64,000 nucleotides of DNA from Nitrospirota bacterium (GTDB lineage Bacteria > Nitrospirota > Thermodesulfovibrionia > Thermodesulfovibrionales > UBA6898), in contig JAJZPM010000009.1 of NCBI GenBank assembly GCA_021811105.1, positions 1-64,000 of the forward strand, written 5' to 3'. A model generated the notes under the pieces. That model was not told the DNA's origin, searched no databases, and was given only the letters and a program-made list of their open reading frames with translations. The translations under genes were made by a program, and so were the position numbers. Of the stretch, positions 1-12,247 are shown one piece after another. How positions within the stretch are numbered: position 1 is the stretch's first letter; each line of letters starts with the position of its first letter.

Positions 1-2
1 AT

Positions 3-2012
3 CACGGAGGATCGGCGGACCCGGGATCTTCGGTCGATCTGGTCGTCTATGGCGCGGGTGCAAGACCCACGACATATTCCCTGGGATCGACGGCCGTACA
101 GTATACGGCAAACGGCACGAGGACGGAAATACAGAAGATCAACAGCCATTGCCTCGGCTGCCATAGTGAGCAGAACAACGCTACGCAGCCCTTCGGAGAC
201 GGAAAGACGCCGAAGCAGTACTCATGGGACGGCTACAGTGTGGGCGCCAAGTACACATCCACGGCAACTACCACGTGGGGAAAATATACGACAGTCGCCA
301 ATGCTGCCAAGAAGAACCTGACCAAGTCGTATTCTGCGCATGGTAATGCGCAGAACAATTTTGGTGGAGGATGGCCTGATGCCCCTCAGTCGTGTTTCGG
401 ACCGAATGTAACGCAGTCAACTTGTCCTGATCTCGGAGGCACATGGGATTCTACAATTCAGCAATGCAATAATATTTCTTCATCTAACTGCACCCAGAAC
501 TTTTGCACCGGGGGACAGTTGACTGCGACAACATGCAGGGAAGTGGGCGGTGTGTGGGGTGCGTCTTCAGGGATTTGCAAGAATATTTCCGAGAGTACCT
601 GTACAACGGGCGATTATTGCTCATGGCCCACTTATCAATATGCGGAATACTTTGCTTGTTATAATGTCGGCGGGCAGTGGCTTGGATGGACCGGGATCGA
701 TTATGTTTGCCTTAACATGACACAATCTGCCTGCCAAACCGCCGGCGGTTCGTGGACCTCTCTGAACGGCGCGTGGAAGACCGGCGGAAGCTATAGTGAG
801 GGAGTGGACTTTGGCCTGAACCCTACAAGGGGCGGCGCAGGCGCAGCAAGCGTAGCGTGTTTCGACTGTCACAACTCTCATGGCTCCAGTGTTTCAGGCG
901 CGACTACATCGTATTCAAGCGCTACGACCAGCGGCGGAATTCTCAAAGATACAACGGCAGGCAAGGGCGGTTATTCCGTAACATACCAGCCGCAGGCAGG
1001 GGGTTCGACAGGAAATAAAAACGCATATAACCCCGGCGCGGGCCTGTGTTTTGATTGCCATCTGACGCCCAGTGCAGGTACTAAGCCCTGGGGGTATAAC
1101 AGCACCTATGGCGCCAGCCAGCCTATCCTCGGATACTTTGACACTGCATTCTTCGGCCCCGGCACGTTCCCTTCGCAACAAAGATATCCCTATAAAGGGG
1201 GGCAGGGGAACCAGGGAGGACATTTCGGCGTTTCATCGGGCTTGACCTCTCCTCCGGATTCGTCGCACCAGATTAATGGGCTTTGCTCTCCATGTCATGA
1301 TCCTCACGGGGTGAGTCCTGCGCTAGGTCTCAACAGTGATTACGGCGTACCGCTTCTGAAAGGCACGTGGATGACGTCGCCGTTTAAGGAGGACGTCGCC
1401 CCCCGCAGTAATAACGTGGCTACTCCGGTCCTCGAGGGTCTCGGGTATCACATAGACCAGAATACCTTTGCGTCAGGAAATATTAATGAGTCAGACAGCC
1501 AGTTTGCCGGATTGTGTCTCAATTGTCATACCAAGGGCAATCTTACGGACGGCGTGACCCACACGTGGAAGAACAAGAACAGGATACACGAGTCTGTGAA
1601 AGGATGGAAGACCGCCAACGGGACTATCCAACACAATTACAGTTGTTCGAAATGCCACACGCCTCATAACGCCAGGCTGCCCAGACTGATGGCGACCAAC
1701 TGTCTGAATAAGAACCATAAGGGACGCGTTAGCAGCAATGCATCTCCGGTCTTGTCAGGGGGCGGTTCCGGCGGTACGACCTGTGAACCCGGCAATCCGT
1801 ACAACTGTTGGGCGGGTTGTACCGGCACAGCGATAGGGTGTTCTGCAGATTATGACGGATCGGGCGGAGGCGGCGCCGGGAGCGGGAGATACCCCGGCTC
1901 TTACAGCGCTTCCGGTAAGCATATCGTCGGAAGCTCGCAGAGCATTACCTGTCATGAGAATGATACAGGCAGCGTAACTGATCAGGACTGGAATTCTAAG
2001 ACGCCCTGGTAA
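3..2012 (+). CDS. Multiheme c-type cytochrome (5' end outside window)
   Basis: Secreted multiheme cytochrome, probably periplasmic or surface-exposed, in electron transfer. The reading frame is open to the left edge, so the N-terminus is missing; an ATG at 240 is internal because the upstream frame already carries a heme motif. Six CxxCH sites are visible: CLGCH (150), CFDCH (858), CFDCH (1047), CSPCH (1284), CLNCH (1515) and CSKCH (1644). Between about 385 and 770 lies a cysteine-rich stretch with four short repeats of the form C-x3-GG-x-W-x(6-10)-C-x-N-[IM]-[ST]. The C-terminus is Gly/Ser-rich and ends in a single orphan CH. The segments at both ends (GDGKTPKQY, YHIDQNTF, RIHESVKGW, HNYxCxKCHTPHN) recur in the next gene, so the two are paralogues. 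Function within a respiratory chain is inferred from the family only. Confidence 0.85.
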   Translation, partial: HGGSADPGSSVDLVVYGAGARPTTYSLGSTAVQYTANGTRTEIQKINSHCLGCHSEQNNATQPFGDGKTPKQYSWDGYSVGAKYTSTATTTWGKYTTVANAAKKNLTKSYSAHGNAQNNFGGGWPDAPQSCFGPNVTQSTCPDLGGTWDSTIQQCNNISSSNCTQNFCTGGQLTATTCREVGGVWGASSGICKNISESTCTTGDYCSWPTYQYAEYFACYNVGGQWLGWTGIDYVCLNMTQSACQTAGGSWTSLNGAWKTGGSYSEGVDFGLNPTRGGAGAASVACFDCHNSHGSSVSGATTSYSSATTSGGILKDTTAGKGGYSVTYQPQAGGSTGNKNAYNPGAGLCFDCHLTPSAGTKPWGYNSTYGASQPILGYFDTAFFGPGTFPSQQRYPYKGGQGNQGGHFGVSSGLTSPPDSSHQINGLCSPCHDPHGVSPALGLNSDYGVPLLKGTWMTSPFKEDVAPRSNNVATPVLEGLGYHIDQNTFASGNINESDSQFAGLCLNCHTKGNLTDGVTHTWKNKNRIHESVKGWKTANGTIQHNYSCSKCHTPHNARLPRLMATNCLNKNHKGRVSSNASPVLSGGGSGGTTCEPGNPYNCWAGCTGTAIGCSADYDGSGGGGAGSGRYPGSYSASGKHIVGSSQSITCHENDTGSVTDQDWNSKTPW

Positions 2013-2604
2013 CGCGGCTTTGGTTTTTTTCGGACCGCCGGCATTACAAGGTGGACTATAACATAAGAAGTTACCCGTAGTTGCAGATAAGGGGGACATG
2101 TGTTGAAGTTGCCGTTGCCGGGCAGAACGACAGAACTGGTCTTAACCCTTGTAATTCTGATCTTAAGTTACGCCTTTGCCCTTGACGCGCCTCATACGAA
2201 TACTCCGGGCTATGGGATCGAGTGCGGGAGTTGTCACTGGACGCACAGCAACTCGACGGCCCCGTGGGAGAATACCCAGGTGCCGGAGGGCCCGGACAAT
2301 ACGATCAACAACAGAAGGTGTTATACCTGTCATGACGGCAGCAAATCCCTCCTGGTAAAGACGCACTCCACCTCCACCACATCGGACTGGTCTGGGTGAC
2401 GGGATCGATAACAGGATCAAATACTGCCGGCGCCCATAATACACATGTCAACACAAAAGCGATCGACTGTGAAGCGTGCCATTACAACAGCGCAGGACGA
2501 AATTCCTCACATGAGGACCACAAGATAACGATCGGATTTAACAACCTCGGCGGTACTACCCAGGGCGGAGCCTACGACGGACAGGCATCGGTGCGAACTA
2601 CGAT

Positions 2605-3732
2605 GTGACCGTTACAACGCCTGCCACTACGGTCTCCAATTCAGACACAAAGACCTGCAGCAATGTCTACCGCCACGGAAATTACTCGGGAAGCGGGAAG
2701 AAAGCTTCTCCCGTCTGGGACCAGCCCGCAAGCGGCGCTTGCGGGACGTGTCATAATGCATCAAATACAACTCCGCCTAACAGCGCGAAACACGGTAAAC
2801 ATGCATCTTCAGCATATTATGAGTTTAAATGCATAATATGTCATAAAGATGTGGTGGACGGGGCTTCACCTGCCAGTTATACGATTATAGACAATAGCAA
2901 GCACGCTAACGGTTATGTAGACTTCAAGTTCGATCCAGTTGACCCAAGGGTTGCAGGAGGCACATACAGTATAGTCTCAGGCACAGCAGCGCCGACAAAT
3001 GGGACAACCCCGCGGGCTTTTGGAAGTTGTAATACTATTTATTGCCATTCTAATGTTCAGCCTGAGGGCGGAGTAGGGGGACCTTCAAGTTATTCAAGCC
3101 CGACATGGGCTCTTGGCGGCACTGCTACATGCGGATCGTGTCATGCCGGCGGTCATGGAGCGCTGCTTGGGACAGGGAGTCGTACAGCACATCTTGCTTA
3201 CACCTTTACCACATCATCTGATTTTTATAAGTGTGTCATATGCCATTCATGGGATCAATCACAGTCGTTAAACTGCTCAAGCTGCCACAATTTACGTGCA
3301 ACTGCTGAATATACGAAGCATGCCAATTATAAAATTGAAGTGATATTTGACCCGGCCTTTAATAGCAGCGCGTCTTACGGCAAAAGTCCATCTTTTACCC
3401 CGGGGACGGGGTACAGCAACTGTTCCAACATATACTGCCATAGTAATGGCACGTCGGTTTCTACCGGGGCGATTCCAAACAATATTTCACTGACCTGGGG
3501 GACGGGCAGCCTGACATGTAACGCCTGTCATAGTTATCCTCCGGATTACAGTAATGGAGGTCCGAAGGCAAACAGCCATCAGGCCCACGCTAATTCGGGA
3601 ATCACATGCGACAAATGCCACAATGCCACGACCATGGACGGATCAACTATCACAAACACAACGAATCACGTAAAACCGTGCCTGGTTTGTTTTGGGGACG
3701 GGTCAGCTTCAGAGCTTTATTCCCGCTCATGA
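2605..3732 (+). CDS. Largest open fragment of the broken multiheme cytochrome
   Basis: This 375-codon fragment holds most of the heme sites of the broken gene: CGTCH, CIICH, CGSCH, CVICH, CSSCH, CNACH and CDKCH, plus CxxxxCH sites CNTIYCH and CSNIYCH. It has no ribosome site or signal peptide of its own, so it is not expected to be made as a separate protein. In-frame coding sequence can be followed upstream of the nominal start to about 2584. Its first CxxxxCH site reads CSNVYRH, a Cys-to-Arg change that would prevent covalent heme attachment there. It ends in CLVCF where CxxCH would be expected, then runs into a stop just after the frame shift. Confidence 0.6.
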   Translation: MTVTTPATTVSNSDTKTCSNVYRHGNYSGSGKKASPVWDQPASGACGTCHNASNTTPPNSAKHGKHASSAYYEFKCIICHKDVVDGASPASYTIIDNSKHANGYVDFKFDPVDPRVAGGTYSIVSGTAAPTNGTTPRAFGSCNTIYCHSNVQPEGGVGGPSSYSSPTWALGGTATCGSCHAGGHGALLGTGSRTAHLAYTFTTSSDFYKCVICHSWDQSQSLNCSSCHNLRATAEYTKHANYKIEVIFDPAFNSSASYGKSPSFTPGTGYSNCSNIYCHSNGTSVSTGAIPNNISLTWGTGSLTCNACHSYPPDYSNGGPKANSHQAHANSGITCDKCHNATTMDGSTITNTTNHVKPCLVCFGDGSASELYSRS

Positions 3733-4207
3733 TTCCGGCTCGACAGTGAACCTGGTCGTATACGGAAACGGCGCGAGACCTACGACTTACGAATTAGGCA
3801 CGACTGCTATTCAGTATGCGGCCAACGGTTCGAGGGCGCAGATATCCAGCATAAATGCTCACTGCCTCGGCTGCCACAGCGATAAGAACAATACGACGAC
3901 TCCGTTTGGAGATGGTAAGACCCCGAAACAGTATGCGTGGGACGGCAACAGTGTGGATGCAAGATATTCGCAGACAGGCACCACGCCATGGGGCAAGTAC
4001 AGCTCCACGACCTACCCGAACGTGACCCCGAAAGACAAGCGTACCAAGGCCTATTCCGCCCACGGCAACGCCGTGCGGATCGTGGCAGGAGGAGCAAAGA
4101 CCGTTGGATGTCGCCCCCGCGAACAACGCTATCGGGACCGTTCGGGACAACACCTATCCCCTGTGACACGACGGAACGCCGCGCGAAGGCGTCCAGTACC
4201 ACATTGA
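3692..4207 (+). CDS. Fragment of the broken cytochrome (GDGKTPKQY module)
   Basis: Fragment continuing the broken cytochrome in another frame. From about 3727 to 4090 it matches the start of the first gene closely (VVYGxGARPTTY, HCLGCHS, PFGDGKTPKQY, AYSAHGNA). After about 4090 the frame is no longer meaningful and true homology resumes at 4107 in a different frame. Relative to the first paralogue, the Cys-rich repeats and three heme sites between the SAHGNA and DVAP segments are absent here. Not likely translated on its own. Confidence 0.5.
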   Translation: MGTGQLQSFIPAHDSGSTVNLVVYGNGARPTTYELGTTAIQYAANGSRAQISSINAHCLGCHSDKNNTTTPFGDGKTPKQYAWDGNSVDARYSQTGTTPWGKYSSTTYPNVTPKDKRTKAYSAHGNAVRIVAGGAKTVGCRPREQRYRDRSGQHLSPVTRRNAARRRPVPH

Positions 4208-4715
4208 TCAGAACACATTTGGTGCGAACATAAGGGCTTCCATTGCCCCCGTAAGCCAGACGGCGAACCAGTTTGCCGGTCTATGCCTGAATTGCCATCC
4301 CAAGGGCAACCTCATCGACGGGACCAACGGCGGCACATGGAAGAGCGTGGACAGGATCCACGAGTCAGTCAAGGGATGGGGGGCCAACGTGCGGCACAAC
4401 TATACATGCGCGAAGTGTCACACCCCCCATAACGGCTCAGCATTGCCCCGTTTGATGATCACGAACTGCCTCAACAGTGCACACAAGGGCAGGGTGGGTT
4501 ATAGCGCCCTCCCCGTGGTCTCAGGGAGTTCGGAGCCGACCATAGAGGCACAGAAGGAGGGGCCGATATATCGGCAGGGACAAACGGAATTTCCGTTTAT
4601 GAGCATGGCGATAATTATATGCCTCCACTGGCTGTATACTCCGGCTCAATCAGTACCACCCAGTGGACGCACATGGCAGTCGTTTATTCGAATAGGCAGC
4701 CACGTATCTACCTAA
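4167..4715 (+). CDS. Fragment of the broken cytochrome (CLNCH and CAKCH sites)
   Basis: Frame running from the in-frame TGA at 4164-4166 to a stop at 4715; the homologous frame already begins at 4107 (DVAPANN) before that TGA. It carries YHIDQNTF, CLNCH, RIHESVKGW and CAKCHTPHN in the same order as the end of the first gene. After about 4545 the reading ceases to look like protein, and the LamG domain continues in another frame. The TGA in the middle of conserved sequence is a nonsense mutation or paired indels. Confidence 0.5.
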   Translation, partial: HDGTPREGVQYHIDQNTFGANIRASIAPVSQTANQFAGLCLNCHPKGNLIDGTNGGTWKSVDRIHESVKGWGANVRHNYTCAKCHTPHNGSALPRLMITNCLNSAHKGRVGYSALPVVSGSSEPTIEAQKEGPIYRQGQTEFPFMSMAIIICLHWLYTPAQSVPPSGRTWQSFIRIGSHVST

Positions 4716-5137
4716 ACGGGGTCCTTGTCCGCACAGGCCTCCAATCAACGAAGGCGCATGTATATGCACCAACGCAGATAGGCGGGGGCTCATACGGTTA
4801 TTTTCCCGGAACTGTTGACGATGTCGCGATTTATGACGGGGCCTTATCTGCCGCTAATATCCTCCTGCACTATCAGCAGATTAGTTCAGCTGTTTGCAAC
4901 ATGTCGGAGGCAAATGTCATATGGGCTACCGATTTTGACGCAACATCGTATGTTGACTATGGATTATCAGCGAACTATGGCTCAACAGCAGGGAATGGTT
5001 CATTGGTAAAGAATCACAGTGTTATCCTGTCAGGCCTTTCGGCACCAGCGACATACCATTACAGGGTGCGCTCTTCTAATACCGGCGGAGAAACCGTCTC
5101 TGGCGATTATACATTCGACGTGAATGCCTGCCCATAG
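4619..5137 (+). CDS. C-terminal LamG/Fn3-like fragment of the broken cytochrome
   Basis: Frame encoding the second half of a LamG (concanavalin A-like) jelly-roll domain, with the typical THMAVVYSN...IYLNGVLV...VDDVAIYDGALS pattern, then about 80 residues resembling a fibronectin type III module (TYHYRVRSSNTGGE). Coding-like sequence of this domain begins near 4580, upstream of the ATG. Attached to a multiheme cytochrome, such domains would suggest carbohydrate or surface binding outside the cell; this is inference. The stop at 5135 is probably premature, since the +1-shifted frame continues in similar composition. Confidence 0.5.
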   Translation: MPPLAVYSGSISTTQWTHMAVVYSNRQPRIYLNGVLVRTGLQSTKAHVYAPTQIGGGSYGYFPGTVDDVAIYDGALSAANILLHYQQISSAVCNMSEANVIWATDFDATSYVDYGLSANYGSTAGNGSLVKNHSVILSGLSAPATYHYRVRSSNTGGETVSGDYTFDVNACP

Positions 5138-5284
5138 GTTCCTCCTATCCTTACTTTCCCACAGCAACAGCAATCGGAAGTATCACAGCGTCGAGCAATA
5201 CCGGAGGAGTAAAACGGCAGCACGAGGTGACGCACGTTTCGAGATGTAAGCTAAGAAATCAAATATTTAAGCATACATTACAGC

Positions 5285-5321
5285 AAAAAATCACCTGTCA
5301 ATTCTGACAGGTGATTTTTTT
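5285..5321. terminator. Perfect rho-independent terminator, bidirectional
   Basis: A 16-bp perfect stem, AAAAAATCACCTGTCA at 5285-5300 paired with 5305-5320, with a 4-base loop ATTC, ends in a T run. The A run on the left and T run on the right make it usable in both directions. It separates the cytochrome pair from the prepilin gene. Confidence 0.93.
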
Positions 5322-5351
5322 GTTCGGGATCTGATATGACAATGGGATACG

Positions 5352-5372
5352 CGGAAGCAGGTGATGCTTCCG
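5352..5372 (+). other. Hairpin in the prepilin 5' leader
   Basis: CGGAAGCA at 5352-5359 and its exact complement at 5365-5372 form an 8-bp stem with a 5-base loop, 29 bases before the prepilin ATG. No T run follows, so it is not a terminator; it could stabilise or regulate the leader. Confidence 0.5.
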
Positions 5373-5401
5373 TAAAACACTAAGGGGAACGTGGAGGGAA
5401 G

Positions 5402-5875
5402 ATGAAAAACGGAGGGATCACGATTATCGAACTTGTCGTTGTTATATCCATCATAGGAATACTCGTTGCGAGCATGGTGTACTCGTATCAGGACTGGGTG
5501 GAAAGATATGAAGTCGAAAGGACGACGAAAGAGCTTTATGCGGACATGATGCATGCCAGACTAAGGGCCATGGAAAGCGGGCGAGAACATTACCTTATCC
5601 TGAATGAGAGGTCTTATTCCGTAGCTGAAGACACGAACGAGAGCGGAGATTACGACGATCCGCCGCTTCCGGGCTTCCCGAAGGCTGTCGCCCACCCGCT
5701 CGACTGGAACGACAGGCACACGGTGAGCAAGGTAATTTTCGAGAGCAGAGGACTGATGTCGGAACTTAGAACGATACGGATCACTTCGGCTGATGCCGAT
5801 TATAATTGTATCGTGGTATCGCAGTCTAGGATCATTACGGGAAAATACGTCGACGGAACATGCAAGAAAAAATGA
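5402..5875 (+). CDS. Type IV pilin-like / GspH-FimT prepilin
   Basis: A 157-residue pseudopilin. The N-terminus MKNGG-ITIIELVVVISIIGILVAS is a class III signal: prepilin peptidase would cut after Gly5, leaving Ile+1 and Glu+5, followed by one hydrophobic helix that packs into a pilus or pseudopilus. A GGAGGG ribosome site precedes the ATG. The rest (ERTTKELYADMMHARLRAMESGREHYLIL) is typical of the GspH/FimT branch of type II secretion and type IV pilus minor subunits. No other pilus gene lies nearby, so the machine it serves is encoded elsewhere. Position after two multiheme cytochrome genes is suggestive but a strong terminator separates them. Confidence 0.88.
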   Translation: MKNGGITIIELVVVISIIGILVASMVYSYQDWVERYEVERTTKELYADMMHARLRAMESGREHYLILNERSYSVAEDTNESGDYDDPPLPGFPKAVAHPLDWNDRHTVSKVIFESRGLMSELRTIRITSADADYNCIVVSQSRIITGKYVDGTCKKK

Positions 5876-5890
5876 GGCCGAAGGCGTCTC

Positions 5891-6892
5891 TCAACGAGTA
5901 CCGGCAGTGCATCTGACGTCGACAGAGTCCGTTCGCCCATAATGGAAATAGCCGTGTGCCGGACACCCTCCGGTGCAGAAAGCCCTGTTGGCACAGTCAG
6001 GCAGCGTGCAGGAGTTCGCCGCAGCTCTTCTAAAGACATCGAGCTTGGGGCTTCCCCATATCACGGCAAGATTGTCCCGGAACATATTGCCGAGATTGAA
6101 TTCCTCAATGTGATGAAAGAGATTGCATGGATACACCGAACCGTCAGGCATAATGGCGAGTTTCCTGACGCCCGCGGCGCAACGCACTCCGGAAGGAAGC
6201 GTATTCTTTTCGAAACAGGAAGCATTGACCTTCAGGATCAACATGTCCGGATTGTCGTTCCGGATTTTTTCATAGAGGGACAAGAATGCGGGATAGCTCA
6301 GGGCCGAGGATCGCGAGGAGTCTGTGCCAGACAGCAGGTCCATATGAAGCAGGTAATATCGCCGCACGCCTATCTCTTTCAGAAGGTCGACTATGTCCTG
6401 AATATCGGCCATCGTCTCCCTGTTGACAACGGTCTTTACGACGGGATTGAATCCTGCAGAAAGAAGTTCTGTTATGTTTCTCAGGACGCCCGAAAAATGA
6501 CCGGCACGGGTCAGCGTGCGATGTCTCTCGCCCGTACTTCCCTCCAGGGATAGTCCGATAGTGAAATCCCTCCCGGAGAAGTCGAGAAATCTTCCGGTAA
6601 TATCAGGAACGCTTCCATTCGTGCTCAGGTTTACTGATAACCCATTTCTTAGAGCGGCCCCCACAAAGTCCGGCATCCAGTCTAAGAGGAGGGGTTCGCC
6701 TCCCATAACGTCCAGTTTTTCTATGCCGTTTTCCGAGAGGATGCGGAGGAGCCTGAGGGCGTTATCGAAGGATATCTCACTACTTTGCGATGAGTCGTTG
6801 AAGCAGAACGAGCACTTTTGGTTGCACCGGAACGTCGGGTAGAACTGGATAAACCGGGGCAGCGGGAAGCGCATCTGATCAATGCGAAACAA
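5891..6892 (-). CDS. Radical SAM protein with SPASM domain
   Basis: A 333-residue radical S-adenosylmethionine enzyme. The N-terminal part has the cluster motif CNQKCSFC (residues about 23-30) and the MGGEPLL SAM-binding segment. The C-terminal part has the auxiliary cluster (SPASM) cysteines: CAAG, CNLFHH and the CTLPDC...FCTGGC group. Such proteins include PqqE-like peptide-modifying enzymes, anaerobic sulfatase maturases and heme-modifying enzymes; the substrate cannot be told from sequence. Its start overlaps the end of the upstream iron-sulfur flavoprotein gene by 14 bases, so the two are cotranscribed and probably translationally coupled. No short precursor peptide was recognised nearby. 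Confidence 0.88.
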   Translation of the reverse strand: MFRIDQMRFPLPRFIQFYPTFRCNQKCSFCFNDSSQSSEISFDNALRLLRILSENGIEKLDVMGGEPLLLDWMPDFVGAALRNGLSVNLSTNGSVPDITGRFLDFSGRDFTIGLSLEGSTGERHRTLTRAGHFSGVLRNITELLSAGFNPVVKTVVNRETMADIQDIVDLLKEIGVRRYYLLHMDLLSGTDSSRSSALSYPAFLSLYEKIRNDNPDMLILKVNASCFEKNTLPSGVRCAAGVRKLAIMPDGSVYPCNLFHHIEEFNLGNMFRDNLAVIWGSPKLDVFRRAAANSCTLPDCANRAFCTGGCPAHGYFHYGRTDSVDVRCTAGTR

Positions 6893-7454
6893 GATCTCTG
6901 CCTGCTTCGAGCGCCTCTTTCATCGCGGTAGGATGTTTCAGGATTGCGCCTTTGGCGTCGACCCCGAGAAAGCTGAGCACCCCGTGTTCCGGGACGCTGA
7001 TTGTTCTGAAGAAGGCCTTTGCCGAGGCATCACTGCATTCGATGCCGACATCCTTCTTCATCCCTCCCACGAGGACAAGCAATCCCTTGCGGCCGGATTC
7101 CCCCGGGGGAATCGGCTTTTTCAAAAGGTATTTCTCGCACCAAAAACTCTGGCAACGGTCAATCATTATCTTGGACTGTGCCGAGAGACCGAAAAAGAAG
7201 ATAGGCGAGGCAAGTATGATCCGGTCGGCAGTCCTGATCTCCGGGTATATCTTCGTCATATCGTCGTCCATGACGCACTCGCCGGTTTTATCGCAACCCC
7301 CGCAGTCCTGGCAGGGTTTGATATCCATCAGATTAAGATTGAAGACGGTCGCGTCCCCTATGGACTTTTCCTTTATGCCCCTGATCACTTCTTTCAGCAG
7401 CAGTTCCGTGTTGCCGTCTTTTCTGGGGCTGCCGAGAAAGGCTATTGTTTTCAT
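6879..7454 (-). CDS. Iron-sulfur flavoprotein / NADPH-dependent FMN reductase family
   Basis: About 191 residues from the chosen start at MKTIAFLGSPRKDGNTE; the longer frame to 7550 reads through a repeat and is not supported. GSPRKDGNT is the FMN phosphate-binding loop of the flavodoxin-like fold. A compact cysteine cluster CQDCGGCDKTGEC (CX2CX2CX5C) follows at about residue 48, the arrangement that binds a 4Fe-4S cluster in archaeal iron-sulfur flavoprotein (Isf). It probably passes electrons or detoxifies oxygen or peroxide. It overlaps the radical-SAM gene and may donate electrons to it (inference). An inverted-repeat element lies directly upstream. Confidence 0.87.
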   Translation of the reverse strand: MKTIAFLGSPRKDGNTELLLKEVIRGIKEKSIGDATVFNLNLMDIKPCQDCGGCDKTGECVMDDDMTKIYPEIRTADRIILASPIFFFGLSAQSKIMIDRCQSFWCEKYLLKKPIPPGESGRKGLLVLVGGMKKDVGIECSDASAKAFFRTISVPEHGVLSFLGVDAKGAILKHPTAMKEALEAGRDLVSH

Positions 7455-7484
7455 GATTGTGTATCCTGATGTTGGATAGAGGAC

Positions 7485-7645
7485 GGGGGCAGACATGCTG
7501 AAAAACGCCATAGAATCGGCAGGATTTGATCGTGATTCACGTAAACGCATGTCTGGCGAATTGAGCTTGTCTGAAAGGTTTGTCCGGTCTGTCCGCGGTC
7601 TATAGCGGAGCCTCGACTATGGCTGTTTTTCAGCACATCCGCCCC
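7485..7645 (-). repeat. Inverted-repeat element, copy 1 (complete)
   Basis: About 161 bp bounded by imperfect terminal inverted repeats of about 29 bp: 7485-7513 (containing TGCTGAAAAACGCCATAG) and 7617-7645 (containing CTATGGCTGTTTTTCAGCA). Inside, read on the minus strand, is GCGTTTACGTGAATCAC, shared with copy 3 and approximately with copy 4. No coding capacity; MITE-like. Lies between the iron-sulfur flavoprotein and flavodiiron genes. Confidence 0.8.
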
Positions 7646-7693
7646 TTTAACGTGCAAGGTAAAGCCTGCTTGGAGAAGGGGATGCCTGTTTCC

Positions 7694-8911
7694 TCACTCG
7701 AACTGGGCGTGATATTCTTTCACCTTTCTGGCGAATTCCTTACCGAATTCATAGCACTTCTGGTCGTCCTCGGGCGCGGGCCTGTAGAGCGCCTGTACTC
7801 CCGGCTCCACTGTCTCCAGTTTCATCGCCTTCAGCCACTCATAGGCCTCCTTGACCGCGCCTCCGCCCCAGCCGTAGCTCCCGAAGGCTCCCGCGATCCT
7901 GTCCTTCGGCCTGAGACCCGAAACATGCTGAAGGAATTCGGCCATTGAGGGGAACATCTTGTTGTTCAGTGTCGGTGTGCCGACCAGAAGCCCTCTGGCT
8001 TTCCAGAACTCCTTGATTGCGATAGACATCGGCGTGGCCCTGAGTTTGAGGACCTTGCAGTCGACGCCTTCTTCCATAATGCCCCGCATCAGGGGCAGTG
8101 TCATCATCTCGGTGCTGTGCCACATCGTATCGTAGATCACCGCAACGCTGAGGTTGGCCTTCCCCGATGCCATGTCGGTGTACATCTGAAGGACCTTGCC
8201 CGGGTTTTTTCTCCAGATGACGCCGTGGTCAGGCGCGATGATCTCGATGTCGAGGCCGAGTTTCTGTACCTCGGCCAATTTGTTTTTGATGATCCCCCCG
8301 AAGGGCATCAGGATATTGGCGTAATAATCGATGACCGAGTCCTCCAATTCAGAGACGGACGCACATTCGATGAACTCGTCGTCGAAGCGCGACGAGGTCG
8401 CGAGATGCTGGCCGAAGCCGTCCTGGCTGATAAGGATCTTGTCTTCCTTGATATACGTCATCATCGAGTCCGGCCAGTGGAGCATCGGCGTTTCGAGGAA
8501 GACGAGGTTCCGTTTGCCGATATTGAGCGTGTCGCCGGTCTTGACTGTCTTGATATTCCATGATGAGATGTCAAAGAACCGTGCAAGCCCCTTCTTGCCC
8601 TTTTCCGTGATATAGATCGTAGCGTTCGGCGCAAAGGCCATAATCCTGTCGAGACTGGTCGCGTGGTCGTTCTCGATATGATTGATCACGACGTATTCGA
8701 TTTTTGACGGGTGCACGATCTGATTGACGTTGTCGAGCATGATCTCGCTGAAGTCGTACTTTACTGTGTCGAAAAGGGTTATCTTCTCGTCCATCACGAG
8801 ATAATTATTGTAGGTGGTCCCGTTGGGCGTCATGTATCCGTGAAAGTCCCGGACCGCCCAATCGATCGCTCCGACCCAGTACACATCGGGTTTTATCTGC
8901 GTTGCGTTCAT
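7694..8911 (-). CDS. Flavodiiron protein (A-type flavoprotein)
   Basis: A 405-residue flavodiiron protein, which reduces O2 to water or NO to N2O using electrons from rubredoxin or a similar donor. The N-terminal metallo-beta-lactamase-like domain keeps the diiron ligands: HIENDH (residues about 77-82), the His in LHWPDSM, the Asp in SQDGFGQH and the His in APDHGVIW. The C-terminal flavodoxin domain (from about residue 255, AVIYDTMWHST) binds FMN. There is no fused rubredoxin, so this is the simple class. Cytoplasmic. It probably protects an anaerobe against oxygen or nitric oxide. It is followed on the same strand, after the repeat, by the iron-sulfur flavoprotein gene. Confidence 0.94.
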   Translation of the reverse strand: MNATQIKPDVYWVGAIDWAVRDFHGYMTPNGTTYNNYLVMDEKITLFDTVKYDFSEIMLDNVNQIVHPSKIEYVVINHIENDHATSLDRIMAFAPNATIYITEKGKKGLARFFDISSWNIKTVKTGDTLNIGKRNLVFLETPMLHWPDSMMTYIKEDKILISQDGFGQHLATSSRFDDEFIECASVSELEDSVIDYYANILMPFGGIIKNKLAEVQKLGLDIEIIAPDHGVIWRKNPGKVLQMYTDMASGKANLSVAVIYDTMWHSTEMMTLPLMRGIMEEGVDCKVLKLRATPMSIAIKEFWKARGLLVGTPTLNNKMFPSMAEFLQHVSGLRPKDRIAGAFGSYGWGGGAVKEAYEWLKAMKLETVEPGVQALYRPAPEDDQKCYEFGKEFARKVKEYHAQFE

Positions 8912-9044
8912 GGTGCCTCCAAAAGATCAGAGATAGTTATTGTTTCCGCGGTAGACGTATAAATTATATCAAAACGGGGCAGGATTGGCTATCCAACCCT
9001 CGTATCAGCACGCAGAGGCGAGACACCCTGCGAATGTCTGCAGG

Positions 9045-10052
9045 TCAATATCCTTCCAGTGTGAAGGGACTGAAGACGATCGGTATCAGAGTAATCAAGA
9101 CAAATACCGTAAATGCCGCGAGCGCGATGAATGTCCACCTACGCTGCACTGCGGGGATTATCGCCGAAAGCGTCTTGATTCTCCCGAGCGGTTGGATAAC
9201 GCCGGCCATCGTCCCGAAGAAACTTCCTGCGAAAAGCGACACGTAAAGCGGGTAACCGGCGTAATAATATCCCGCTTGGAGTATGTCGAAAGGGCAATGA
9301 TGGGTCGGGATCTGGTAGAAATAGAGCGAGATGAAGGAGACAATGGCGGCGATTGAAACGAAGAAGAAGAAGGCCGAGAGTAACGCGAGGAGGACCATAA
9401 AGAGCTTTCGACCTGACTTCAAGGCGATTACTCCGACGAAAAAAATAATCAGAAAAAGGGAATAAAAGACCACTTCGGTCGGGCGAACCGGCAGGGATGC
9501 CAACGAACTCCCCACCCCCGTTCCGCCTTCGCTGAAGAGCACGCCGCAGCAGGAGGTGATGACGTTGGGGTCTATTCCTCCGAAGTATTTTATCTGAAGG
9601 ACATATCCCGCAACGACAAAAGGGACGATCAAGAGAAGCAGTTTATATTTTTTTTTGGTAAGCGGATAGTCTTCTGCCTTGCTGTCAAGACTGTCGAGCG
9701 CGATCCAACCGGCCGCGAGAAAAAGGACCGCGATCTTTGCATAGAGCGCGGGGAACCCGAACGAATTGGCGTTCAGGGACCCGGTCGCACACATTGCACC
9801 GACGAGGAGGTTGTGAAGGTCGTCCGCCGTATAGATGAAGAGAAAGACCGAGACGATCTCGAAGAGGAGTCCGTACTTGACGAGGGTCGAAACGAGATAG
9901 GTCGTTCTTTCGAGTGCGAGCTGCGCCTCGGAGTTGCTTCCGATGTCCCAGTTTCTCCATATCTTCACTCCGAGGAAAGAGGCATAGGCCAAAAGAACGA
10001 GCGTGATGCCCGATCCGAGGAGCAAGGCGATGATACCGGGCTGCATGAACAT
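9045..10052 (-). CDS. Polytopic membrane protein with Cys/His motifs, NosL-ABC cluster
   Basis: A 335-residue integral membrane protein with about eight predicted transmembrane segments. I do not recognise a named family. Three features stand out: a MCATGSLNANSFG segment after the second helix, a SCCG pair in the middle, and THHCPFD before the seventh helix, which could bind copper or heme on one membrane face. It starts 12 bases after the ABC ATPase gene, and the whole cluster (NosL, small secreted protein, FtsX permease, ATPase, this protein) reads on one strand. This suggests a metal- or heme-handling membrane complex; that role is inference. Confidence 0.7.
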   Translation of the reverse strand: MFMQPGIIALLLGSGITLVLLAYASFLGVKIWRNWDIGSNSEAQLALERTTYLVSTLVKYGLLFEIVSVFLFIYTADDLHNLLVGAMCATGSLNANSFGFPALYAKIAVLFLAAGWIALDSLDSKAEDYPLTKKKYKLLLLIVPFVVAGYVLQIKYFGGIDPNVITSCCGVLFSEGGTGVGSSLASLPVRPTEVVFYSLFLIIFFVGVIALKSGRKLFMVLLALLSAFFFFVSIAAIVSFISLYFYQIPTHHCPFDILQAGYYYAGYPLYVSLFAGSFFGTMAGVIQPLGRIKTLSAIIPAVQRRWTFIALAAFTVFVLITLIPIVFSPFTLEGY

Positions 10053-10064
10053 CCTTGGTCCGTC

Positions 10065-10760
10065 CTACTTCCTTGTCACATTTCTCACCGCACCGTCGCG
10101 CATCTCTACGACGAGGGCCGCATATTCATTTTCAAAAACGATAGGATCGTGTGAGGCGATGATGACTGTCTTGCCTCTTTCCCAAAGGTCCTTCATAATG
10201 GACATGAAGTCGCGTGAAAGCGCGGTATCGAGATGGGCGGTCGGCTCGTCGGCCAGCACGATCTCGGGGTCGTTGATGAGTGCACGCGCAATCGCGGTCC
10301 GCTGCTGCTCGCCGCCCGAAAGACCCTGTACCGGAAAATCTCTCCGCTTCATCATGCCGATGCCCTCCAGCAGTCCCTCCGCTTTTTTCTTCAGCTTCGG
10401 GAGGTCGACATCGGTGGGATAAAGCGGGAGCATCACGTTTTGCAGGACGCTCATCCCCTGAATGAGATGGAACTGCTGGAAGATGAACCCGTAAGTCGTC
10501 CTCCTGATATCGGTCAGGAACCTTTCGGGAAGGTGTGATATGTCCCGTCCTTCCAGCGAGATCGAGCCCGATGTAGGCCGGGTCATGCAGCCGAGGAGGG
10601 AAAGCATGGTTGTCTTGCCGGAACCGCTGGGCCCTTTCAGCACTGCGAAATCCCCGCGCCTGATGCCGATGCTCACTCCGCTCACCGCAAGCACCTCATT
10701 CGCCTTGCCCTTGTTGTAATACTTTGTCAGCTCGTTCGTTTTTATAATAATTTCGTTCAT
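10065..10760 (-). CDS. ABC transporter ATP-binding protein, MacB/LolD type
   Basis: A 231-residue ATPase with Walker A GPSGSGKTT (about residue 43), Q-loop IFQQFHLI, signature LSGGEQQR and Walker B VLADEPTAHLD. Closest in pattern to the MacB/LolD/FtsE group, which power FtsX-like permeases that move lipoproteins or peptides, or act mechanically, rather than import solutes. The partner permease is the FtsX-like gene just upstream, although a 188-bp inverted-repeat element now separates them. Transcription through the element would keep the operon intact. Confidence 0.93.
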   Translation of the reverse strand: MNEIIIKTNELTKYYNKGKANEVLAVSGVSIGIRRGDFAVLKGPSGSGKTTMLSLLGCMTRPTSGSISLEGRDISHLPERFLTDIRRTTYGFIFQQFHLIQGMSVLQNVMLPLYPTDVDLPKLKKKAEGLLEGIGMMKRRDFPVQGLSGGEQQRTAIARALINDPEIVLADEPTAHLDTALSRDFMSIMKDLWERGKTVIIASHDPIVFENEYAALVVEMRDGAVRNVTRK

Positions 10761-10844
10761 GTTGTTATCGTCTTACTGTACAGTCTTTAATTTTCTTGGG
10801 TATGTAAGATTTAGTCACAGTTGCATTTTTATTTCGAAAACAGA

Positions 10845-11032
10845 GGACAAATGCGCTGAAAAAGGTCCATAATCTGTCCTCCTCGGGCGGATCCGCCGGG
10901 GCGAAAGGCTCCGCACAGTCGCTGCATGTGCGAAAGACCTTCTTCGGAATTGCAAGTCGAGGTTAAAACTGCGTTTACGTGAATCACAATAGATCATTGC
11001 CGAATTTATGGACTTTTTCAGTGCGTTTGTCC
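10845..11032 (+). repeat. Inverted-repeat element, copy 3 (complete)
   Basis: About 188 bp with terminal inverted repeats of about 28 bp, 10845-10873 (GGACAAATGCGCTGAAAAAG...) and 11004-11032 (...CTTTTTCAGTGCGTTTGTCC). It contains GCGTTTACGTGAATCAC. It fills most of the 314-base gap between the FtsX permease and ATPase genes; the remainder of that gap shows nothing recognisable. Confidence 0.8.
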
Positions 11033-11074
11033 TTTGCGTAGCGTCACGACAAGGTTTGCCATTTACTGTCTTTC

Positions 11075-12247
11075 TCATCCTCTTACCACCTCATCCGGAT
11101 CCGTGATCGCCGCCTTCCAGGACGGAATGATCGTCGACGCAATATAGGGGATGACAGTGAAGGCCATCAGCATCGCAATCTGATAAGGATCTATGAACGG
11201 GGCGAGCCTGAAGTCAGGATAGATGACAGACCATCCTTTCAGCGCGGGTGCGAAGACCGAGGCCCCGAAGAAATACACATGCACGTACGCAAGGATTATC
11301 CCAAGGAGAAAAGACGAGAGGGATATGACAAGTCCTTCCCAGAACTTCATCTCGATGATGTCCGAGGTCTCCCATCCTATCGCCTTGAGGATGCCTATCT
11401 CTTTCTTCTCTTCAGCACTGAGACCGGTCGCCTTGTCCCACGCCAGGATGATGAAGGCGACGAGGGCACCGGCGAAGAGCGTAAGGATCAGACCGCTCCT
11501 CCAGCCGAATACAGCGTCGTAGGTCCGTATGATTTCCTTCCTCAATATCGGCCTTGTGTCGGGGAAACGGGAACGGATCTTCCCCGCGATGACCGGCGCC
11601 TCGGTTTCGTTGCGGACCGTGACGGCGAGGTCCGTGGCCATATCAGGCGGCATTCTGAACAGCCGGATGACATCGGGCCGGCCCAGAACGATGAGGTCGG
11701 CGGTAAGGAGTTCGGACCCCGATTCGAAGATGCCGACCACGTCAAAGTCCATCGCAGCGCCGGCTGAGGACACCAAAGAAATCGTACTTCCCATATCGAT
11801 GAACCGGGCCTTTGCCACCCCTCTGCCGACGGCCGCGACGCCTTTTTCCTCCGGGCCGGGCAGCCGCCCCTGAAGAAGACGGTTGCCGGCTGAAAGCGAC
11901 CCCGAGGAAGCGAGGATGGTATAGTTCGCCTTTACGAGCGGGTCGTAATAATAACCCCAGTAACGGGGCTCGACGCCGGATACGCCCGGTATGGCCGAAA
12001 TCTCTTTTGCCCTGCCGACCGGGATCAGTTCCTGCCGACCGGCGGACATCCTCTGGACGATTAGCTCGGGCGAGCCCTTGAGGATAAGCAGGGCCTCGCG
12101 CTTGAACGAATAGGAAAGAAAAAGGATCGATCCGGTGATGAATACGATAAATGTGAATACGAGAACGATGCCTAAGTTCTTGAACTTCCTCCTTAGTAGA
12201 GACAGGAGCGTGAAATCCAGGACGTTCATATGGCTGTTTAGGCTCAT
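11075..12247 (-). CDS. FtsX-like ABC permease
   Basis: A 390-residue permease with the MacB/LolC layout: one N-terminal transmembrane helix (residues about 27-50), a periplasmic domain of about 200 residues (MacB_PCD-like, ISAIPGVSGVEPRYWG), then three C-terminal helices with the FtsX signature (KKEIGILKAIGWETSDI). The chosen ATG overlaps the stop of the upstream small gene as ATGA and has a GGTGAAG site; a second ATG six codons later lacks one. Works with the ATPase encoded downstream. Substrate unknown; the NosL neighbour suggests assembly of a metalloprotein. Confidence 0.9.
   Translation of the reverse strand: MSLNSHMNVLDFTLLSLLRRKFKNLGIVLVFTFIVFITGSILFLSYSFKREALLILKGSPELIVQRMSAGRQELIPVGRAKEISAIPGVSGVEPRYWGYYYDPLVKANYTILASSGSLSAGNRLLQGRLPGPEEKGVAAVGRGVAKARFIDMGSTISLVSSAGAAMDFDVVGIFESGSELLTADLIVLGRPDVIRLFRMPPDMATDLAVTVRNETEAPVIAGKIRSRFPDTRPILRKEIIRTYDAVFGWRSGLILTLFAGALVAFIILAWDKATGLSAEEKKEIGILKAIGWETSDIIEMKFWEGLVISLSSFLLGIILAYVHVYFFGASVFAPALKGWSVIYPDFRLAPFIDPYQIAMLMAFTVIPYIASTIIPSWKAAITDPDEVVRG

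Follow-up and report, generated by a model that had tools for sequence, protein, structure and literature searches.

Environmental bacteria are believed to be wired to minerals by giant multiheme cytochromes, proteins that can be very different even in strains that are closely related. Here we describe two such genes that lie in tandem at the start of a stretch of Nitrospirota DNA (the window). The window takes up the initial 64 kb of contig C66 in a draft genome (G000, 3.94 Mb in 93 contigs), window base 1 being also base 1 of the contig. The described families closest to them are the CxxxxCH/CxxCH cytochromes (TIGR01904/PF09698) and the doubled-CXXCH cytochromes (TIGR01905/PF09699), and the models of both families score above cut-off here. 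The downstream gene (gene 2) reaches 106.2 bits with TIGR01904 (cut-off 27) and 69.4 bits with PF09698 (21.7) over positions 2605-3729. The upstream gene (gene 1) reaches 30 bits with TIGR01905 (25.2) and 35 bits with PF09699 (20.6). Unlike the known members of the CxxxxCH/CxxCH family, gene 2 is in six pieces, and only one of 79 homologous loci has a possible frame break in the module that was compared. We conclude that gene 2 is probably a recently dead, mosaic pseudogene that once encoded a giant secreted c-type cytochrome with many hemes, and that it belongs to a converting family and stands in tandem behind an open paralog.

The 79 homologous loci were kept from the best 80 of 92. They include 28 titled Nitrospirae or Thermodesulfovibrionia and 31 titled Geobacter, Geobacteraceae, Geomobilimonas or Pelotalea. 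Excerpts of two Geobacter studies report that c-type cytochromes are enriched among the heavily mutated genes between G. sulfurreducens strains PCA and KN400 (PMC3495685), and that, when G. metallireducens and G. sulfurreducens are compared, 65 of 91 putative cytochromes in one of them have a homolog in the second species (PMC2700814). The genes described here are like the Geobacter cytochromes in changing fast between close relatives; they differ in that the excerpted parts of those accounts describe neither a tandem copy with block losses nor conversion between paralogs (PMC3495685, PMC2700814). In the open-access literature, searched by title and the opening of the abstract, we found no study of multiheme cytochromes that deals with their conversion or with decay of a tandem copy.

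Structure of the tandem genes

Gene 2 (2100-5137) follows gene 1 on the same strand and is a collinear paralog of it. An earlier note on this DNA, made from the sequence alone, had reported segments shared in the same order by the two genes, which agrees with two DNA matches: 39-243 with 3752-3956 (71% identity, E 4e-24) and 1499-1671 with 4268-4434 (70% identity, E 1e-17). As the reference we used L056, an intact homolog of 2140 codons with 23 CXXCH and five CX4CH motifs, and each piece of gene 2 was aligned to homologs in its own frame. The related genomes compared were G001, G002, G003, G004, G007 and G030, of which G002 is of the same genus and G004 is a congener. Signal peptides were identified by eye, with no prediction program. 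The features of the two genes are as follows.

1-2012, plus strand: gene 1, the 3' part of a large c-type cytochrome gene; 669 codons, six CXXCH, Paired_CXXCH_1/TIGR01905 match
369-840, plus strand: non-heme insert within gene 1, rich in Cys, in which C..GG.W recurs (by eye); the best homologs align over 3-368 and resume at about 840
2100-2396, plus strand: gene 2 piece 1, with the signal peptide (by eye) and the first two CXXCH
2384-2411, plus strand: block loss 1 with a frame change; 157 bp still present in contig C23 at the same point
2396-2608, plus strand: gene 2 piece 2, one CXXCH
2605-3732, plus strand: gene 2 piece 3, a CxxxxCH/CXXCH repeat array; 375 open codons, seven CXXCH and two CX4CH, TIGR01904 106 bits
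3734-4077, plus strand: gene 2 piece 4 (SGSTVNLVVYG...AHGNA), 78% amino acid identity to L056
4068-4106, minus strand: inverted 39-bp scrap of a lost block; the reverse complement encodes GLCxxCHDPHGV; best match 87% identity, E 1.6e-5
4107-4502, plus strand: gene 2 piece 5, which holds the TGA at 4164-4166; 76% DNA identity to G004, synonymous divergence (dS) saturated
4502-4528, plus strand: block loss 3 with a frame change; DNA identity to G004 rises from 76% to about 94%
4528-5137, plus strand: gene 2 piece 6, with LamG-like and purple-acid-phosphatase-N-like domains and the natural stop TAG at 5135-5137; 92.6% amino acid identity to G004

Read against L056 from 5' to 3', the pieces of gene 2 lie in frames 2, 1, 3, 1, 2 and 1, that is, with five frame changes. 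They cover in order residues 43-117, 330-388, 391 to about 777, 894-1008, 1221-1371 and 1524-1760, and three blocks are absent (residues ~118-329, ~1009-1220 and ~1372-1523). The frame change at 2584-2605 is small and involves no block loss, and the one at 3672-3734 falls in the repetitive array, which makes its type ambiguous. Most of what the earlier note had listed is therefore found, including the in-frame TGA at 4164-4166; its missing blocks are real, although they number three against L056 and not two. A further break that it had placed at 5133 is ruled out: the gene ends naturally with the TAG of 5135-5137, a stop shared by the syntenic gene of G004 (L150), and all gaps in the alignment come after that stop.

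The signal and the heme array share one frame in L056 and in the G001 homolog. In gene 2 the signal-bearing stretch (2100-2396) and the array (2605-3732) are in different frames, and an export signal is present on just one piece, a diheme fragment of 99 residues. From what is known of the family, gene 2 would make no secreted electron-transfer protein. A search of solved structures gave one marginal match, over the LamG-like region, to the arabinanase 5hon (E 0.0022).

The inverted scrap lies at the second block loss and had not been reported in the earlier note. The minus-strand search covered 103 loci (some records are duplicated, for example L040 and L148), and 24 of these match at 4068-4106. 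They make up 24 of the 52 minus-strand matches of genes 1 and 2 taken together, the rest being scattered with at most two per place. Six of the 24 matches were translated, and every one falls on the GLCxxCHDPHGV motif. The edge of the scrap has about 3 bp of homology by eye, and the junction at 2384 has 2 bp. Lesions of this kind may have arisen by template switching or end joining with very short homology, and the breakage would have followed shortly once the presence of gene 1 had made the copy dispensable.

The 5' end of gene 2, also not part of the earlier note, is identical to two other contigs of G000. Positions 2169-2384 are 100% identical to C23 (216 bp) and 2168-2286 are 100% identical to the end of C62 (119 bp). 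Both contigs terminate within the cytochrome gene.

Gene 1 had been described as intact, which is not established, as its 5' end lies beyond the contig start. Its reading frame (3-2012) is open through the last 669 codons, the only ones visible, up to the stop. Like that of gene 1, the L056 matches on contig C7 of G007 and contig C33 of G030 run out at residues 1438-1445, with a single TAA. The gene 1 module is matched in 11 of the 101 related genomes searched, G000 included. A search of G000 for the 5' half of gene 1 did not find it; the start of the gene is most likely near the end of C62, because synteny with G001 makes C62 the left neighbour of C66. Family knowledge predicts that the product of gene 1 is a secreted electron-transfer protein, and electron transport at the cell surface or outside it would be the task of the working members, gene 1 and its intact homologs. 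The insert at 369-840 sits where gene 2 lost a block, and change may be concentrated in this region. Contigs of G002 and G004 also start near the insert point (gene 1 residue 284-285).

The locus in related genomes

The earlier note had called for comparison with the orthologous locus. In G001 the site is on a single contig, where LPLAT is followed by one open cytochrome gene (1366 codons, 20 CXXCH) and then by the pseudopilin, radical-SAM and FprA genes as in the window. In G003 the same flanks are about 240 bp apart, with no space for a cytochrome. In G004 and G002 a cytochrome 3' half stands directly before the pseudopilin gene, and both contigs start inside the cytochrome gene. The G004 ortholog (L150, 2-2200, from the contig start) is open over all 733 visible codons up to the shared TAG, and it is against this syntenic gene that the lesions of gene 2 are read. 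Set beside an open paralog and open homologs in relatives, the block losses, inverted scrap, five frame changes and nonsense codon bear out the suggestion of a dying copy.

The damage appears to be recent. Over 4535-5134, 38 of 600 bases differ between gene 2 and G004 (93.7% identity), with nonsynonymous divergence (dN) 0.034, dS 0.175 and dN/dS 0.19. The seven neighbouring genes (5402-12247) have dS of 0.08-0.28 and dN/dS of 0.015-0.33 in the same comparison, and all seven keep frame over the aligned range. The alignment of 4528-5398 contains no coding indel; its four gaps all lie between the stop and 5398. Piece 4107-4502 has dN 0.106 and saturated dS (proportion of synonymous differences, pS, 0.71). 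Since dS jumps at 4502-4528, this piece is at a different evolutionary distance, and gene 2 appears to be a mosaic of paralogs; the piece was probably taken from a paralog, either by gene 2 or by the gene of G004. The dN/dS of the last piece, together with the dN of 0.106 beside saturated dS in 4107-4502, points to constraint on the pieces of gene 2 until recently. With a last piece whose dN/dS is like that of its neighbours, the decay would be too recent for loss of constraint to show.

The frame survey of the 79 loci covered the gene 1 module only. This module is in a single frame at 76 of them. Of the other three, two owe their apparent break to a paralog next to the module, and the third (L108) may be a true break. 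The possible break in L108, from Geobacter sp. OR-1, is near the end of the module (4245-4349).

Two conserved features follow the cytochrome locus in the window.

5285-5320, no strand given: terminator-like inverted repeat with a T run; matched in G001-G004
5402-5875, plus strand: GspH-type pseudopilin gene, the first conserved neighbour (family search and G004 comparison)

The name GspH pseudopilin comes from a family search, and the neighbour names ilvC, leuA, LPLAT, mnmA, radical SAM, flavodoxin-like, FprA and Rhs-like are by-eye readings of the proteins. A short intergenic repeat at 7456-7649, similar to repetitive extragenic palindromes or miniature inverted-repeat transposable elements, is dispersed over many contigs of G001 and G004, and most of the 47 (G001) and 46 (G004) matches listed for 4500-10800 of the window fall on it. 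An Rfam scan of the 64-kb window and of loci L008, L009 and L201 found no family at gathering score.

Exchange between cytochrome copies

Gene conversion between bacterial paralogs leaves copies that are more alike within a genome than each is to its positional ortholog, with sharp edges to the converted tracts. The cytochromes of this lineage are like this: core identity within a genome exceeds that to the positional ortholog, the edges are sharp, and the flanks follow position. The three G000 copies (gene 2, C62 and C23) are 100% identical over a 118-bp core at the mature N-terminus. The G001 gene at the C62 site is only 73% identical to them over this core, with 91% identity between C62 and G001 over the 4.7 kb leading up to and into the gene and 85% over the last 1.5 kb. 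At the same two sites in G002 the copies are 91% identical to each other over the core, rising to 97.7% over 171 bp, while the G002 cores are 60-61% identical to those of G000. No such homogenisation is seen in the more distant G000 paralogs, on C31 (72%) and C72 (66%).

Signal peptides behave differently from the cores. Similarity was expressed as z from 300 shuffles per pair, for six short peptides and with limits set by eye. Peptides of the C62 site are alike in three species (z 3.5, 9.2 and 14.2) and those of the C23 site in two (z 5.4); for pairs taken across the sites, z does not exceed 2.0. That signal peptides follow the genomic site while mature N-termini follow the genome indicates gene conversion between the paralogs, to judge from these comparisons. 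Tract exchange of this kind among the cytochrome paralogs of the lineage would account for the mosaic state of gene 2. Independent recent duplication in each genome fits less well, as it agrees poorly with the shared insertion site beside ilvC and with site-specific signal peptides. Unlike conversion tracts in general, the tract here has its start where the signal peptide ends and, in G002, joins two sites that flank a metabolic segment.

In G002 one 11.1-kb contig (C43; L202 1-1299 and 10911-11120) carries both outward-facing cytochrome 5' ends in inverted orientation; these are the copies with 97.7% identity over 171 bp. Two G002 cytochrome 3' halves (the start of L148, on contig C21, and the end of L147) share exactly 127 bp and then diverge. 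The inverted layout around ilvC-leuA would allow inversion, without demonstrating it. It is conceivable, although we think it doubtful, that outward-facing giant cytochromes flank ilvC-to-leuA as near-identical inverted repeats, that recombination between them homogenises the cores and could invert the segment and swap 3' halves, and that broken tandem copies like gene 2 are by-products or donors. For G000 this model does not close: C54, expected beyond C23 from the outer flank in G001, ends in an Rhs-like gene, and the adjacency of C23 and C62 is putative only. The search of the G000 genome gave no match to mnmA, and cytochrome and mnmA proteins had no match in the last 2.1 kb of C54. The end of C54 (L211 13072-13979) consists of an Rhs-like fragment, by eye, and then small genes, where the relatives have mnmA.

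Alternative explanations

Lesions of this kind could also come from the assembly. Exact 127-bp overlaps between contig ends occur in G000 (the start of C23 with C5), G002 (C21 and C46) and G030 (C34 and C3), and they suggest short-read de Bruijn assemblies with k=127, as is typical of SPAdes. The ends of C5, C84, C31 and C70 and bases 1-127 of L008 (on C23) share 109-127 bp exactly, probably the edge of a mobile element. Single-base read errors, which the earlier note had considered for several breaks, are made unlikely as the main cause by this assembly signature and by the seven clean neighbours out of seven. An assembly in which near-identical copies (the missing 5' half of gene 1, C62, C23 and gene 2) were tangled and gene 2 became a chimeric consensus is unlikely, yet it is the strongest of the rival readings. 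It would explain why C66 starts, and C62 and C23 end, inside these genes, why searches of G000 did not find the 5' half of gene 1, and why 14 of 24 cytochrome-bearing contigs with known ends (from 11 genomes, a non-random set of better matches) end within 10 bp of a match. A de Bruijn misjoin, however, requires a shared k-mer. In the ten other G000 loci compared, exact matches of at least 25 bp to gene 2 lie only within 2101-2430, so that its later junctions have no repeat there at which to misjoin, and a search of the whole G000 genome found no further near-identical match beyond 2430. The inverted scrap, the nonsense codon and the join with 2 bp of homology are also untypical of tangles. Inversion with deletion is a known product of multiple displacement amplification (MDA), the chimeras of which are, in the excerpted part of the source, mainly inversions with intervening deletions, most having 2-21 nt of complementarity at the junction (PMC1855051). 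We regard this origin as very improbable here, as the scrap requires two strand switches, the sample has no sign of amplification, the other lesions are of a different kind and the compared neighbouring genes are clean. On these comparisons the lesions of gene 2 are probably real, and we put the chance that they are artefacts, of whatever sort, at roughly one in five.

Among biological alternatives, the earlier note had proposed a phase-variable gene or a reservoir for recombination. Five frame changes could suggest a gene switched off by tract slippage, but this is scarcely credible: no break has a slippable tract or an invertible repeat, and lost blocks cannot switch back. The repeat scan of 2100-5137 found a single G6 (4378) and a single C6 (4423), both away from the breaks, with no A or T run of seven or more and no unit of 2-4 bases repeated five times, and 1-5400 contains no inverted repeat of at least 24 nt. 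A silent reservoir, in which broken copies are retained as donors to expressed cytochromes, is improbable but better founded. It draws on mature N-termini that are identical within a genome and divergent between genomes while signal peptides follow the site, on the pairs of different 3' halves, one pair in G002 and another in G030, that begin with exactly the same 127 bp, and on the dS jump at 4502-4528. Exchange of tracts between copies is thus indirectly supported; the same tracts could be passive gene conversion, however, the lesions of gene 2 would harm any recipient, and no strain pair was found with transfer out of gene 2, nor any other sign that it acts as a donor.

Several observations weigh against a recently dead pseudogene. 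The 216-bp exact repeat shared with C23 exceeds 127 bp, which means that the assembly could have exchanged the route through 2169-2384 for that of C23; both exits from this repeat are broken, however. The C23 copy (L008 6880-7362, beside ilvC) is itself frame-broken, with a smaller deletion nested within block loss 1 of gene 2, and such nesting of one lesion zone would be unexpected if the two copies had decayed independently. At their cytochrome ends C62 and C23 have 119 and 48 bp in common with C66 and not 127, so these ends are not plain k-mer overlaps and have another cause. The G002 gene at the orthologous site (L148 1170-3442) may shift frame near its end, with L056 residues 1679-1782 in frame 3 and 1903-1959 in frame 2, and has one TGA; frame breaks may therefore be commoner than the 79-locus survey implies, which, being limited to one module and to loci ranked by score, favours intact ones.

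Conclusions

The decay of gene 2 is mostly ordinary gene decay in a fast-changing family and not a new system; the conversion between paralogs is the more interesting side result. The locus catches cytochrome change under way: one copy is apparently alive, the other has newly broken, and the conversion tracts have clear edges. It also offers a possible reason for the breaks of draft assemblies in such genes, and counts of hemes and of cytochrome genes taken from drafts may be unreliable.

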